Assembly: GCA_945639195.1 (NCBI GenBank)
Contig: CALZEE010000001.1
Coordinates: forward strand, 248,001-312,000
Source of the DNA: an uncultured Ignatzschineria sp.
Lineage (GTDB): Bacteria > Pseudomonadota > Gammaproteobacteria > Cardiobacteriales > Wohlfahrtiimonadaceae
Length of the DNA stretch: 64,000 nucleotides
Reading direction: 5' to 3'
Shown: piece by piece, positions 39,474 to 43,632 of the stretch
Numbering within the stretch: position 1 is the first letter of the stretch
How the letters are laid out: every line of letters starts with the position of its first letter
Translations under genes and position numbers: made by a program
The notes under the pieces: generated by a model
Database searches by the model: none
Told to the model about the DNA's origin: nothing
Seen by the model: the letters and a program-made list of their open reading frames with translations, nothing else

Positions 39474-39812
39474 TAATAGAGGTCCTTATTGAAAGATGAT
39501 TATTAAGCCGATTATTATACCCTGTTTTTTCATTCGATAGGAATGGGATGAGGGCGATGGTGAATAATCTTTAAGATCTTATGTTTAATAGGATGTATTA
39601 ATATAATGTGATTATTTTTACCTAAAATCAGTTGATTATAAAGTAGGGTGATTGCGCTGAGTGGGGTATCATTTGCCAGTAATATTGTGTAAATCTTCTC
39701 GACAGATCATGCTTGAAAGATTAATGGTTGTTTTTTCCATGCTTAGAAACTATGGTAAACTATCACACTAAAAATAGACGATCACGGTATAGACCTTGGA
39801 TGGAAACTAACG
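39474..39812. other. Divergent intergenic region tex / protease gene
   Basis: 339 bp with no credible gene. On the plus strand TTGTTT (39728-39733) and TATGGT (39751-39756) are 17 bp apart and make a plausible promoter for the three-gene unit downstream. Nothing else structured was seen. Confidence 0.45.
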
Positions 39813-40361
39813 ATGAGCAGAATAAAAATGAATAAAGCGGTGGTTGTTGGGGGATTATTACTCTCTTGTGTTGCGGGCTTGAGTTTCGCAGCGAAGAAGG
39901 ATGAGGGAGGCAAACCCCAGCCAGTATTTGGCCGTTATGAGGTTATAAAAATCGCTGAATTAGAGGGTGTTGAAGTAAAAGCAAAGCTTGATACAGGCGC
40001 TTTTACCGCATCTTTAAATGCAGTAGATATTGAATACTTTGAAAAAGATAAAGATGATTGGGTGCGGTTTACGCCCGTCATTGATGATCAAAAGCTTAAT
40101 GAGCAAGAGATGCCATTAGTGAAAATATCCCGAATAAAGCAACGAGCAGAAGAGGGAGAAGATAGCGATGATATCGCTTCAGCACAACGACCTGTTGTTG
40201 AGATGACGATCTGTATGGGCGGTCTTGAAGAGGTCATTGAAGTGAACTTGACGAATCGTGGGCATTTTAGTTATCCGCTCTTACTTGGAGCTAAAGCACT
40301 CAGACAATTTAAAGCATTAGTGGATGCGCGCCGTAAATATACTGCGCCCCCAGAATGCTAA
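39813..40361 (+). CDS. Secreted retropepsin-like 'ATP-dependent zinc protease' family protein
   Basis: A 182-residue protein with a signal peptide (about 1-26, ending LSFA-AK), so probably periplasmic. The mature part has FGRYEVIKIAEL then KLDTGAFTASLNA. The D-T-G-A motif is the retropepsin-like catalytic Asp of the PF05618 family, which is annotated as zinc protease although the fold is aspartic-protease-like. It ends with GHFSYPLLLGAKALRQF. In many proteobacteria this family is encoded beside an inactive-transglutaminase 7TM protein and a RimK-like ligase, as here. Substrate is unknown. Confidence 0.8.
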   Translation: MSRIKMNKAVVVGGLLLSCVAGLSFAAKKDEGGKPQPVFGRYEVIKIAELEGVEVKAKLDTGAFTASLNAVDIEYFEKDKDDWVRFTPVIDDQKLNEQEMPLVKISRIKQRAEEGEDSDDIASAQRPVVEMTICMGGLEEVIEVNLTNRGHFSYPLLLGAKALRQFKALVDARRKYTAPPEC

Positions 40362-40398
40362 ACCTTACATTAAACTCTAGTTATAAGGAAAGTATCCT

Positions 40399-41985
40399 GT
40401 GCGTTCCGTAAATTTACATCTTAAAGTATTAATCTTTCTGCTGGTAGCAATGGGTCTTGGATCGATTGCCTATGAGCGTTATGTATTACAAATTCCTTTT
40501 ACAGATCGAGCGGTGGAAAATCTCTGGACGATTGATGCCAAGATTAGCTATGACGTGCCCAGAGAGAGCGCCGTTTCTGTAAAATTCCATATTCCGACAA
40601 TGTATCATCAATATGCGAAGTTTAGTGAAGCGCTTATTGCGGATAAACAGTATGGTCAAAACTTTGAAGAAGATGATCTAGGTAACAAGATTGCGCATTA
40701 CTCTGTTCGCCGAACTAAGGGGGCAGAAACAATCTATTATCGATTAGCATTGTCGCCAAACTTTGGGGGTGCATCTGATAAAAATGAGCTCCAAAAAGGG
40801 GCAATTTATCGTGAGCCAATTGCAACAGAAGGCGCGGAAAAACTTGCGGTAGAATCATTAGTAAAAGATGTTCGTGCAACGTCATCAAATACGATGAGTT
40901 TTATCAGTGAAGCGATTCGTCGCGTCAATGATCTCGATAATGCGAACACCTCGCTTTTATTGAAAGGGGATGATTCGGTTAAAAACCGTTATACGGTGAC
41001 TGAGCTCTTGCTTTCTCAAGCGCATATTCCGGTACAGCGCGTCAATACATTGGAGCTAAAGCCGAGTGTTGATCAGCAGCCTGAAGTCTGGTTAAGAAGT
41101 TATATCGAAACCTCAAACAAAGATAAAGAGACCAATAAAAATGTCACGATGGGGAAATGGTACTACTTCAACCTCAATGATGGCGCGGTAGGCTTACCGA
41201 AAAATGCGATTATTTGGTCGATTGGCGATGAACCACTCTTAAACGTGACAAATGGCGCGAGAGCAAAAGTATCCTTTAGTGTGACGGATAAAGAGCTGAC
41301 AGCGATTAGCTTGGCGCAAGCAGAGAATACAGAAAGCTCAGATTTCCTTGCCTATTCTCTCTATAGTTTACCGATCTCGATCCAATATGGGTATGAACTC
41401 ATGTTGATGATTCCTTTTGGTGTATTGGTGATTTTACTCGTCCGTAACGTTGTCGGCATCCAGACGCTCGGAACCTTTACGCCGGTCTTGATTGCGCTTG
41501 CGTTTAGAGAAACAGGACTAGCCTTCGGGATCGCCTTCTTTACGATTATTACGGCCATCGGCTTACTTGTACGATCCTACTTGGAACATCTTAAACTGCA
41601 GATGCTATCGCGGTTATCAGTTGTTTTAACCTTTGTGATTTTAATGATCGCAACGTTAAGTATCTTTAGTTACAAAATGGGCTTCGCGCAAGGTTTAGCG
41701 ATTGGACTATTCCCAATGGTGATCTTAACGATGACGATTGAGCGCCTTTCTATTACATGGGAAGAGCGGGGTGCCGGCAATGTGCTTAAAATTAGTATCG
41801 GGACATTGATCGCCTCGTCTCTTGCGTATCTCTTGATGGATATTCCAGAATTTGTCTACTTCGTCTTTACCTTCCCAGGAATCTTGTTAGTACTTGCGGG
41901 CTTCATGTTGATGATGGGACGTTATAGAGGGTATCGTTTAACAGAGCTGAAACGCTTTAAAGCGATGCTGAAAGAGGGGAAATAG
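40399..41985 (+). CDS. Transglutaminase-like 7TM membrane protein
   Basis: A 528-residue protein. There is one N-terminal helix (about 6-24), a periplasmic region of about 300 residues containing a transglutaminase-like fold without an obvious Cys-His-Asp triad, and about seven membrane helices from residue 330 on (QYGYELMLMIPFGVLVILLVRNVVGIQTLGTFTPVLIALAFRE). This is the layout of the inactive transglutaminase/UUP1 family. The start is GTG at 40399 with AAGGAAAG upstream. It lies 37 bp after the protease gene and 2 bp before the ligase gene. Function is not established; a sensor or scaffold role in the periplasm is my inference. Confidence 0.8.
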   Translation: MRSVNLHLKVLIFLLVAMGLGSIAYERYVLQIPFTDRAVENLWTIDAKISYDVPRESAVSVKFHIPTMYHQYAKFSEALIADKQYGQNFEEDDLGNKIAHYSVRRTKGAETIYYRLALSPNFGGASDKNELQKGAIYREPIATEGAEKLAVESLVKDVRATSSNTMSFISEAIRRVNDLDNANTSLLLKGDDSVKNRYTVTELLLSQAHIPVQRVNTLELKPSVDQQPEVWLRSYIETSNKDKETNKNVTMGKWYYFNLNDGAVGLPKNAIIWSIGDEPLLNVTNGARAKVSFSVTDKELTAISLAQAENTESSDFLAYSLYSLPISIQYGYELMLMIPFGVLVILLVRNVVGIQTLGTFTPVLIALAFRETGLAFGIAFFTIITAIGLLVRSYLEHLKLQMLSRLSVVLTFVILMIATLSIFSYKMGFAQGLAIGLFPMVILTMTIERLSITWEERGAGNVLKISIGTLIASSLAYLLMDIPEFVYFVFTFPGILLVLAGFMLMMGRYRGYRLTELKRFKAMLKEGK

Positions 41986-41987
41986 TC

Positions 41988-42986
41988 ATGTTAACGATGA
42001 TTAGACGTTGGCGTGAACTTCGAAAACGCGGTGTAATGGGAATTAACGAGCGTAATGGCGATTTTGTTCTTAAATACAACAACCGCAAATTCTATCCTTA
42101 TGTGGATGATAAAATCATCACGAAAGAGCGCGCGATTGCGGCCGGCATTAATGTGCCGGAGATGTATGGCGTTATTGAGACAGAGAGCGATATTAAGCAT
42201 CTGCGTAAGATCTTAAAAGATAGAACGGAGTTTGTGATTAAGCCGGCGCAAGGCGCGGGCGGTGATGGGATTATCGTTATTGGCGACAAGTACGATGATT
42301 ACCGCTACAAAACAGTTTCAGGGCGTTTAATTACGCTTGATGAGATCGAATATCAGATTTCTAGTACCTTAACAGGACTCTATTCACTCGGTGGCGCGCG
42401 AGATCGTGCGCTGATTGAGTATAAGGTTAACTCAGATCCGATCTTTAGTAGTATCAGTTATGAAGGCGTGCCGGATATTCGGGTGATTGTCTTAATGGGT
42501 TATCCTGTAATGGCAATGCTTCGTTTACCGACAAGGCAGTCAGGTGGGAAAGCGAACTTGCACCAAGGGGCGATCGGTGTGGGGGTTGATCTCGCAACCG
42601 GCACAACACTCGATGGTACTTGGCTTAATGAGATCATTCATCGCCATCCTGATACCAACCATGAAGTGAGCAGTGTCACGCTCCCGAATTGGGATGGTTT
42701 CTTGGAGCTCGCAACGAGTTGCTATGAGCTAAGTCAGCTCGGCTATATCGGTGTGGATATGGTGCTTGATGAGACAAAAGGACCATTGGTACTAGAGATC
42801 AACGCAAGACCAGGGCTGAATATTCAGATCGCCAATAATGCCGGACTCGGCGCGCGGGCGCGGAAGGTTGAAGAACATCTTGCGATGCTGAAAAAAGCGA
42901 AGAAGCCAGCAGAATCGATCCAAGAGAGAATGGCATTCTCGCAACAATACTTCGGTAATGCGATGGTGAAGGATCTCGAAAAGTAG
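41988..42986 (+). CDS. RimK-like ATP-grasp ligase (alpha-L-glutamate ligase-like)
   Basis: A 332-residue cytoplasmic ATP-grasp enzyme. Recognisable parts are the ATP-binding VIKPAQGAGGDGIIVI (about 85-100), a substrate loop with RLPTRQSGGKANLHQGAIGVGVDLATG, and the metal-binding end GPLVLEINARPGLNIQIAN. The family couples ATP hydrolysis to forming amide bonds between an amino group and a carboxylate, as RimK does when adding glutamate to S6. Translational coupling with the membrane protein is likely (2-bp gap). Substrate is unknown. A terminator follows. Confidence 0.83.
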   Translation: MLTMIRRWRELRKRGVMGINERNGDFVLKYNNRKFYPYVDDKIITKERAIAAGINVPEMYGVIETESDIKHLRKILKDRTEFVIKPAQGAGGDGIIVIGDKYDDYRYKTVSGRLITLDEIEYQISSTLTGLYSLGGARDRALIEYKVNSDPIFSSISYEGVPDIRVIVLMGYPVMAMLRLPTRQSGGKANLHQGAIGVGVDLATGTTLDGTWLNEIIHRHPDTNHEVSSVTLPNWDGFLELATSCYELSQLGYIGVDMVLDETKGPLVLEINARPGLNIQIANNAGLGARARKVEEHLAMLKKAKKPAESIQERMAFSQQYFGNAMVKDLEK

Positions 42987-43025: not shown

Positions 43026-43056
43026 AAAACGTGGCTCCATTGAGTCACGTTTTTTA
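43026..43056 (+). terminator. Rho-independent terminator after ligase operon
   Basis: AAACGTGGCTC-catt-GAGTCACGTTT (one G-T pair) is followed by TTTTATT, about 40 bp after the ligase stop. Confidence 0.85.
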
Positions 43057-43146
43057 TTATCTGTGAGAAAATAACGAAGAAGTTTGAAAGCTATAGTATG
43101 GTAATCATTCCCGCATAATGTTATCTCGGTGAAGAGGAAAACTATC

Positions 43147-43632
43147 ATGACAGATTCAGTGAAGCATCCTTTACCGGCAAGATTACTGCTCTCCATCTAT
43201 GGTAAGAGTTTAATCTATCCACCTATTATTGCGACGCTCTCGATTCATGCGCTCTTTTATATCAGTTATCTGCTAGAAGGGGCTGCGGGCTTTGATTCGC
43301 TCACATTATCTGAGCGGATTTTAGAAATGATTGGGAGCTTTATCTGGTTATTAATTGTTTTGACTGTATTGTTGGGCTTGCCTTCAATGCTCTTTTTAGG
43401 CGGGGGAACGGTGCTCTTTCGCGTGACGAAAACAGGGCGGAATGTCTTAAAAAGCAGTGTGATATTTACGATCGTTTTCACTTTACTGCGGCTTTTAAGT
43501 GGGCAGTTTGACGCAATATGGCGGGAATCATCGATGGCAGGAATGACTGATTTGGGGCTGGAAGTTTTAGGTTTTTTTGCCTTAACGCTAGTGACGAGCT
43601 ATTTCGTGTTTCCCCGCTCCTATCCTTCATGA
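43147..43632 (+). CDS. Small integral membrane protein, unknown
   Basis: I do not recognise this protein of 161 residues. It has four hydrophobic segments (about 22-45, 65-90, 105-125 and 135-155) with short connecting loops. ATG 43147 has GAGGA nine bases upstream and is preferred to GTG 43129. It stands alone between a terminator and ogt on the same strand. Confidence 0.65.
   Translation: MTDSVKHPLPARLLLSIYGKSLIYPPIIATLSIHALFYISYLLEGAAGFDSLTLSERILEMIGSFIWLLIVLTVLLGLPSMLFLGGGTVLFRVTKTGRNVLKSSVIFTIVFTLLRLLSGQFDAIWRESSMAGMTDLGLEVLGFFALTLVTSYFVFPRSYPS

Follow-up and report, generated by a model that had tools for sequence, protein, structure and literature searches.

A complete rloABC operon in an uncultured Ignatzschineria and a sister class of RloB-RloC operons with an intact transglutaminase triad

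The stretch of DNA analysed here (64,000 nucleotides; hereafter the window) contains a complete rloABC operon, formed by three open reading frames at 39813-42986, all on the + strand. The operon was named in Pseudomonas aeruginosa in 2025 (PMC12239564), and the trio in the window is an ordinary member of the kind already described. What holds the interest is its open mechanism and a sister class of operons (class 2), newly found in the present analysis, in which 27 of 27 distinct RloB sequences keep an intact Cys-His-Asp triad and which is paired with RloC and is without RloA. We tentatively regard rlo as an envelope poly-amino-acid pathway of two branches. The sister branch would use a catalytic RloB domain and pass its product to an outer-membrane barrel, and the branch of the window, with a dead domain, would have recruited a retropepsin to do the processing in the periplasm, so that what had been an export system became a regulated periplasmic polyanion. 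The features of the window operon are the following.

39753-39761, + strand: weak candidate extended -10 element, TGGTAAACT, read by eye and absent from the scan output
39813-40361, + strand: rloA, secreted retropepsin-like aspartic peptidase of 182 amino acids (PF05618)
39984-39992, + strand: RloA K58-L59-D60, with D60 the catalytic Asp (D48 in P. aeruginosa RloA) and K58 the poly-Glu contact K46, by alignment to 9g59 and 9g58 (numbering of PMC12239564)
40188-40190, + strand: RloA R126, corresponding to R114, which in P. aeruginosa contacts poly-Glu and is required both in vitro and in vivo
40257-40259, + strand: RloA R149, corresponding to R137, which in P. aeruginosa likewise contacts poly-Glu and is required both in vitro and in vivo
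40399-41985, + strand: rloB, membrane protein of 528 amino acids with a GTG start (PF14400 and PF14402)
40516-41298, + strand: periplasmic part of RloB, residues 40-300, transglutaminase-like fold (match to 3isr, Z 14.3, rmsd 3.8, 219 residues aligned)
41374-41982, + strand: RloB 7TM domain and cytosolic C-terminus, residues 326-528 (PF14402 and model)
41917-41958, + strand: RloB C-terminal motif GRYRGYRLTELKRF, nearly invariant by its conserved columns and predicted to be cytosolic
41988-42986, + strand: rloC, cytoplasmic ATP-grasp ligase of 332 amino acids (PF14397/TIGR02291)
42555-42569, + strand: RloC NLHQG motif, counterpart of NLHRG in RimK, conserved in both operon classes
42795-42809, + strand: RloC E270-I-N272-A-R274, ATP-grasp metal-site motif, invariant and aligned with MEVNASPG of RimK
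43026-43053, + strand: intrinsic terminator hairpin 3' of rloC, whose 12-bp stem leads into a T-rich tail

The three domain families proposed in the sequence-only reading of this DNA were all recovered: PF05618 in RloA (E 7e-37), PF14400 (E 3e-29) and PF14402 (E 2e-92) in RloB, and PF14397 in RloC (E 3e-92). Its assignment of RloA to the secreted fraction, RloB to the membrane and RloC to the cytoplasm was right as well. Against NCBIfam, RloC exceeds the cut-off of TIGR02291 (501 bits versus 314), whereas RloB matches the RloB model over its full length (E 5e-198) at 659 bits versus an exception cut-off of 900, and RloA matches RloA2 best, at 175 bits versus 250; the RloA1/A2 and RloB entries are exception models for close relatives, not limits of the wider families. 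The genes form one tight unit, as that reading held, with 37 nt between rloA and rloB and 2 nt between rloB and rloC, and cotranscription is likely, judged from this spacing. The reading had also given the unit its own candidate promoter and terminator. The terminator is a strong one; a promoter scan returned three promoter-like sites, versus a mean of 9.0 in shuffled sequence, with none near rloA, and the promoter is an unproven candidate at best. The upstream neighbour of rloA is tex, which is divergent. Downstream of rloC, at 43129-43632 just past the terminator, lies the gene of a probable membrane protein of 167 aa that has no match in Pfam or NCBIfam; methylguanine-DNA methyltransferase is also encoded on this side.

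The rloABC unit is not a chance arrangement, for gene order and strand are the same at 48 of 49 loci, the window locus included. RloB is present in every genome of the same family except one that is 80% complete, and was found in none of 14 sampled genomes that belong to the order's other families. Of 274 genomes taken across the class, 47 encode a full-length canonical RloB (cut-offs >300 bits for RloB and >260 bits for a strong RloC). A strong RloC accompanies it in 46 of these, the 47th having an adjacent RloC fragment; conversely, all 46 genomes with a strong RloC have RloB, and RloA is a direct neighbour in 45 of the 47. These genome counts pool several collections that include some near-duplicates, and sequences are dereplicated only where stated. 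The median gap between rloB and rloC is 1 nt, with frequent overlap, and at the loci examined RloC is constantly linked to an RloB-type membrane protein and to a secreted or export partner. The trio recurs in proteobacteria, as the earlier reading stated.

The RloA sequence matches the solved RloA-type structures 9g59 (E 1e-34) and 9g58 (E 5e-33). Its N-terminus has, by inspection, a signal-peptide-like stretch, and its active-site stretch reads K-L-D-T-G-A. The protein is a PF05618 retropepsin, probably secreted, with the DTG(A) signature and the Arg and Lys residues that contact poly-Glu. D60, G62, A63, R126 and R149 are invariant among 27 family members; the equivalents of K46, D48, R114 and R137 are kept, and R92 of P. 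aeruginosa RloA is replaced by K104. In P. aeruginosa, three redundant secreted RloA proteases are required for growth at low salt, and the rlo phenotypes concern hypo-osmotic conditions, beta-lactams, biofilm and cell shape (PMC12239564). In vitro, the enzyme cuts Glu runs of at least 8 residues and not those of 6 or fewer, Arg within the run blocks cleavage, and the substrates were protein-borne runs, including one at a protein C terminus; R114A or R137A abolishes rescue (PMC12239564). Deleting either rloB or rloC gives full rescue of the hypo-osmotic lethality of the rloA1-3 mutant and partial rescue of its other defects, which places RloBC upstream of a product whose removal requires RloA (PMC12239564). 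The statement in the earlier reading that substrate and purpose are not established is therefore outdated as regards phenotype and the substrate class of RloA, but still right as regards mechanism, since the authors of PMC12239564 left the product of RloC and the role of RloB open. No measured RloC product from any organism was found in the literature searched, and the 64-kb window encodes no Glu run of six or more.

RloB consists of an N-terminal TM helix, a periplasmic beta plus transglutaminase-like domain and a C-terminal 7TM domain (AlphaFold2 model, mean pLDDT 82.5). The positions of the catalytic triad are occupied by V, E and N instead of C, H and D, and the view that the fold is an apparently inactive transglutaminase is borne out. 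In an independent transposon screen in Shewanella vesiculosa, disruption of an inactive-transglutaminase gene led to overproduction of vesicles (PMC12096838). In the models, the 7TM part has no secure structural relative: RnfA/NqrD gave the best fold match (Z about 8), which may reflect only a common helical arrangement and was not used. The invariant C-terminal columns are G507, Y509, G511-R513, E516, L517, R519 and F520, in the pattern GxYxGYRxxExxRF. Because this motif is nearly invariant, and because RloC is fused right after that position in one natural fusion described below, it suggests a candidate docking site for RloC.

RloC models as a glutamate ligase of the RimK/ArgX type. Its AlphaFold2 model (pLDDT 92.8) is nearest to ArgX, RimK, LysX and cyanophycin synthetase (best-chain Z 16.6-18.4), the RimK structure being 5zct, titled 'poly-alpha-L-glutamate peptides synthetase', and D-Ala-D-Ala ligases follow close behind. 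The DIR, NLHxG and ExNAxPG motifs align with those of RimK, which together with the fold places RloC among RimK-type enzymes; its score against the rimK_fam model TIGR00768 is 49 bits versus a cut-off of 143. Glutamate as the substrate is not proved by the modelled fold, in which several ATP-grasp amino-acid ligases score almost equally (Z 14-18). The gene follows rloB on the same strand as part of one operon, as expected of rloABC. Forty-six RloC positions, including NLHxG and ExNxR, are common to both operon classes, and the active-site positions are the same in both.

The genome of the window organism (2.45 Mb, 99% complete) has exactly one PF05618 gene and two genes with RimK-domain matches: RloC and one other, which by sequence and by its location beside an RsmE-like gene is a glutathione synthetase. 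Neither RimB nor RimK was detected in it. Its S6 has an acidic C-terminus, ending in DNADDADDNSEEA. MdoG is absent from this genome; an ancient link between rlo and osmoregulated glucans was considered on that account and set aside, as one absence proves nothing.

Class 2 is defined by divergent RloB proteins with a clear Transglut_core match, in which the full Cys-His-Asp triad is present (EASCNGK, SHQWVE and WVPFD, aligned to canonical RloB). We found 24 such loci in a scan of one genome per species and five more in 398 phylum genomes; some of these genomes occur in two collections and most are metagenome-assembled. The hosts are Zetaproteobacteria (Mariprofundaceae, Ghiorsea), Nitrosomonadales and, as metagenome-assembled genomes, gammaproteobacteria, Nitrospirota and Campylobacterales. 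The triad is intact in 27 of 106 distinct RloB sequences, and all 27 fall in one clade (support 1.0), canonical RloB being a separate clade (support 0.89) in a tree that has a third, standalone class as its root. Among the 79 sequences outside class 2, Cys never occurs at the Cys position and His occurs once at the His position. Every class-2 locus with enough downstream sequence has the order RloB, RloC, TPR protein and beta-barrel-like outer-membrane protein; at several loci a TPR lipoprotein is encoded upstream. RloA was found at none of these loci within up to 7 kb on each side (much less on short contigs), and two class-2 genomes (G494 and G613), by the complete listing of PF05618 genes, lack the family altogether. 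No paper on such RloB-RloC-TPR-barrel operons was found in the open-access literature, though an earlier description elsewhere is possible. The loci are the following.

L065:3717-9389, L066:4305-10072, L067:4646-10363, L069:2064-7605 and L081-L109: sister operon with intact-triad RloB, RloC, a large TPR protein and a barrel, without a retropepsin
L068:3431-5989: natural fusion that joins intact-triad RloB to RloC as a single frame of 853 aa; an 836-aa TPR protein comes next

A TPR protein with a barrel is a known arrangement for exporting polymers made by synthases (AlgK/AlgE, PgaA, BcsC), and for this reason we read the rlo product as an exported polymer. The distribution of triad and protease suggests that the retropepsin assumed processing after the transglutaminase domain had lost catalysis. 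The third class comprises RloB-like proteins that have a transglutaminase core lacking the Cys and no RloC nearby (L070:4130-5758, L071:3899-5569 and L072:6650-8440); in L071 a divergent retropepsin gene adjoins the RloB-like gene.

The model that we prefer, and to which we would give an even chance, is that RloC makes poly-alpha-glutamate, RloB moves or tethers the chain and RloA trims it. RloC would be a cytoplasmic ligase of the RimK type that polymerises L-glutamate, most likely in alpha linkage. RloB, translationally coupled to RloC, would bind it through the cytosolic C-terminus and may move or anchor the growing anionic chain across the inner membrane, while its dead transglutaminase-like domain would hold the chain in the periplasm and not cut it. 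RloA, putatively a dimeric secreted retropepsin with a cationic cleft, would cut the chain and so limit its length and amount. Untrimmed anionic polymer in the periplasm could then account for the lethality at low salt, which would disappear once synthesis by rloC or transfer by rloB is lost. In class 2, RloB itself probably processes the product, which would be passed on to the outer membrane or cell surface; in the branch of the window, RloA would have taken processing over. The model draws on poly-Glu cleavage and epistasis in P. aeruginosa, the contact residues of RloA, the fold and motifs of RloC, the linkage and fusion of RloB with RloC, the single retropepsin and undetected RimK of the present genome, and the reciprocal pattern in class 2; against it stand the nearly equal fold scores of several ATP-grasp ligases, the protein-borne nature of the Glu runs cut in vitro and the lack of supported homology between RloB and known polyglutamate exporters, the CapC profile being shallow. 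In outline this is the order of events put forward from the sequence alone: cytoplasmic ligation, a membrane step and periplasmic trimming.

Other readings share parts of this evidence. RloC might put a Glu tail on one exported or membrane protein, to be presented by RloB and removed by RloA, as a periplasmic counterpart of RimK/RimB. The Glu runs cut by RloA in vitro, including the run at a protein C terminus, were borne on proteins (PMC12239564), so that the target may be a protein; RloC is RimK-like, and RimK-RimB provides a precedent on RpsF. However, the operon encodes no candidate target, none was found in P. aeruginosa (PMC12239564), and the class-2 operons carry an export-type TPR protein and barrel and no common soluble target, so that we think this reading rather unlikely. 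It is more doubtful still that RloC adds Glu or another amino acid to a precursor of the envelope (a lipid-linked sugar or a peptidoglycan stem, for instance), with RloB recruiting the precursor and RloA trimming cross-bridges. The Pfam name of the ligase ('Sugar-transfer associated ATP-grasp'), the cell-shape and cell-wall-antibiotic phenotypes of P. aeruginosa (PMC12239564) and the D-Ala-D-Ala ligases among the fold relatives of RloC all point that way, but RloA requires about eight Glu and is blocked when Arg interrupts them (PMC12239564), and ORF and Pfam annotation revealed no sugar transferase or Mur gene between the window operon and its neighbours.

Finally, RloC could be a further ribosomal S6 glutamate ligase located in an envelope operon by chance, a reading that would fit the undetected RimK and the acidic C-terminus of S6. 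We judge it very improbable. RloC is always linked to RloB, and in class 2 to an outer-membrane module; moreover, RloA is secreted, and rimB shows no genetic interaction with rloA in P. aeruginosa (PMC12239564). Because the genome of the window organism has one retropepsin and no detected RimK or RimB, action on S6 only is unlikely, and the doubt raised on this point in the earlier reading finds no hold in a genome with no RimK-like ligase beyond RloC and the glutathione synthetase, and with RloC linked to envelope partners.

The rlo operon affects osmotic tolerance, sensitivity to cell-wall antibiotics and biofilms in P. aeruginosa. The genome studied here is a clean test case, since with one retropepsin and with RimK and RimB undetected a single deletion should show a phenotype without redundancy. 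The sister class offers a natural comparison, from which a role for the dead transglutaminase domain can be predicted; it also suggests passage of the product across the envelope.

The poly-gamma-glutamate synthase PgsBCA/CapBCA combines a ligase, a membrane protein and an external hydrolase, and rlo would work in a similar manner, although PgsB is a Mur-ligase-type enzyme and not an ATP-grasp enzyme. The RloB alignment, compared with tandem CapC by hhalign (by domain, merged and with reversed controls), gave a probability of at most 2% and an E-value of 0.025 at best, with a CapC profile that is shallow (five sequences); a further search in the CapC genome class added none. A relationship of the RloB 7TM domain to PgsC/CapC was accordingly dropped as evidence. 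Searches of the RloB and CapC profiles against PDB sequences gave nothing significant, the weak RloB match being to the TgpA transglutaminase (E 0.27), and CapC is missing from the genome of the window organism. The tandem-CapC genes, in family f64 genomes, encode proteins of about 1081 aa with two CapC (PF14102) domains (L073:3481-6723 and L074:3689-6940) and adjoin genes for a CHASE2 protein and for an 836-aa protein without a family assignment.

The rloABC operon of P. aeruginosa corresponds to that of the window in its genes and their order, in the active-site residues and poly-Glu contacts of RloA, in the dead transglutaminase domain of RloB and in a RimK-like RloC. However, P. aeruginosa has three redundant RloA proteins together with RimB and RimK, whereas the present genome has a single retropepsin and neither RimB nor RimK detected. 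The RimB-RimK pair resembles rlo in joining a retropepsin and a RimK-type ligase on poly-alpha-glutamate, but it is cytoplasmic, acts on S6 and has no RloB partner (PMC11957791, PMC12239564). The class-2 operons have homologous RloB and RloC and the same ligase active site as the window operon, and differ from it in their intact triad, in having no RloA and in the TPR protein and barrel encoded downstream.
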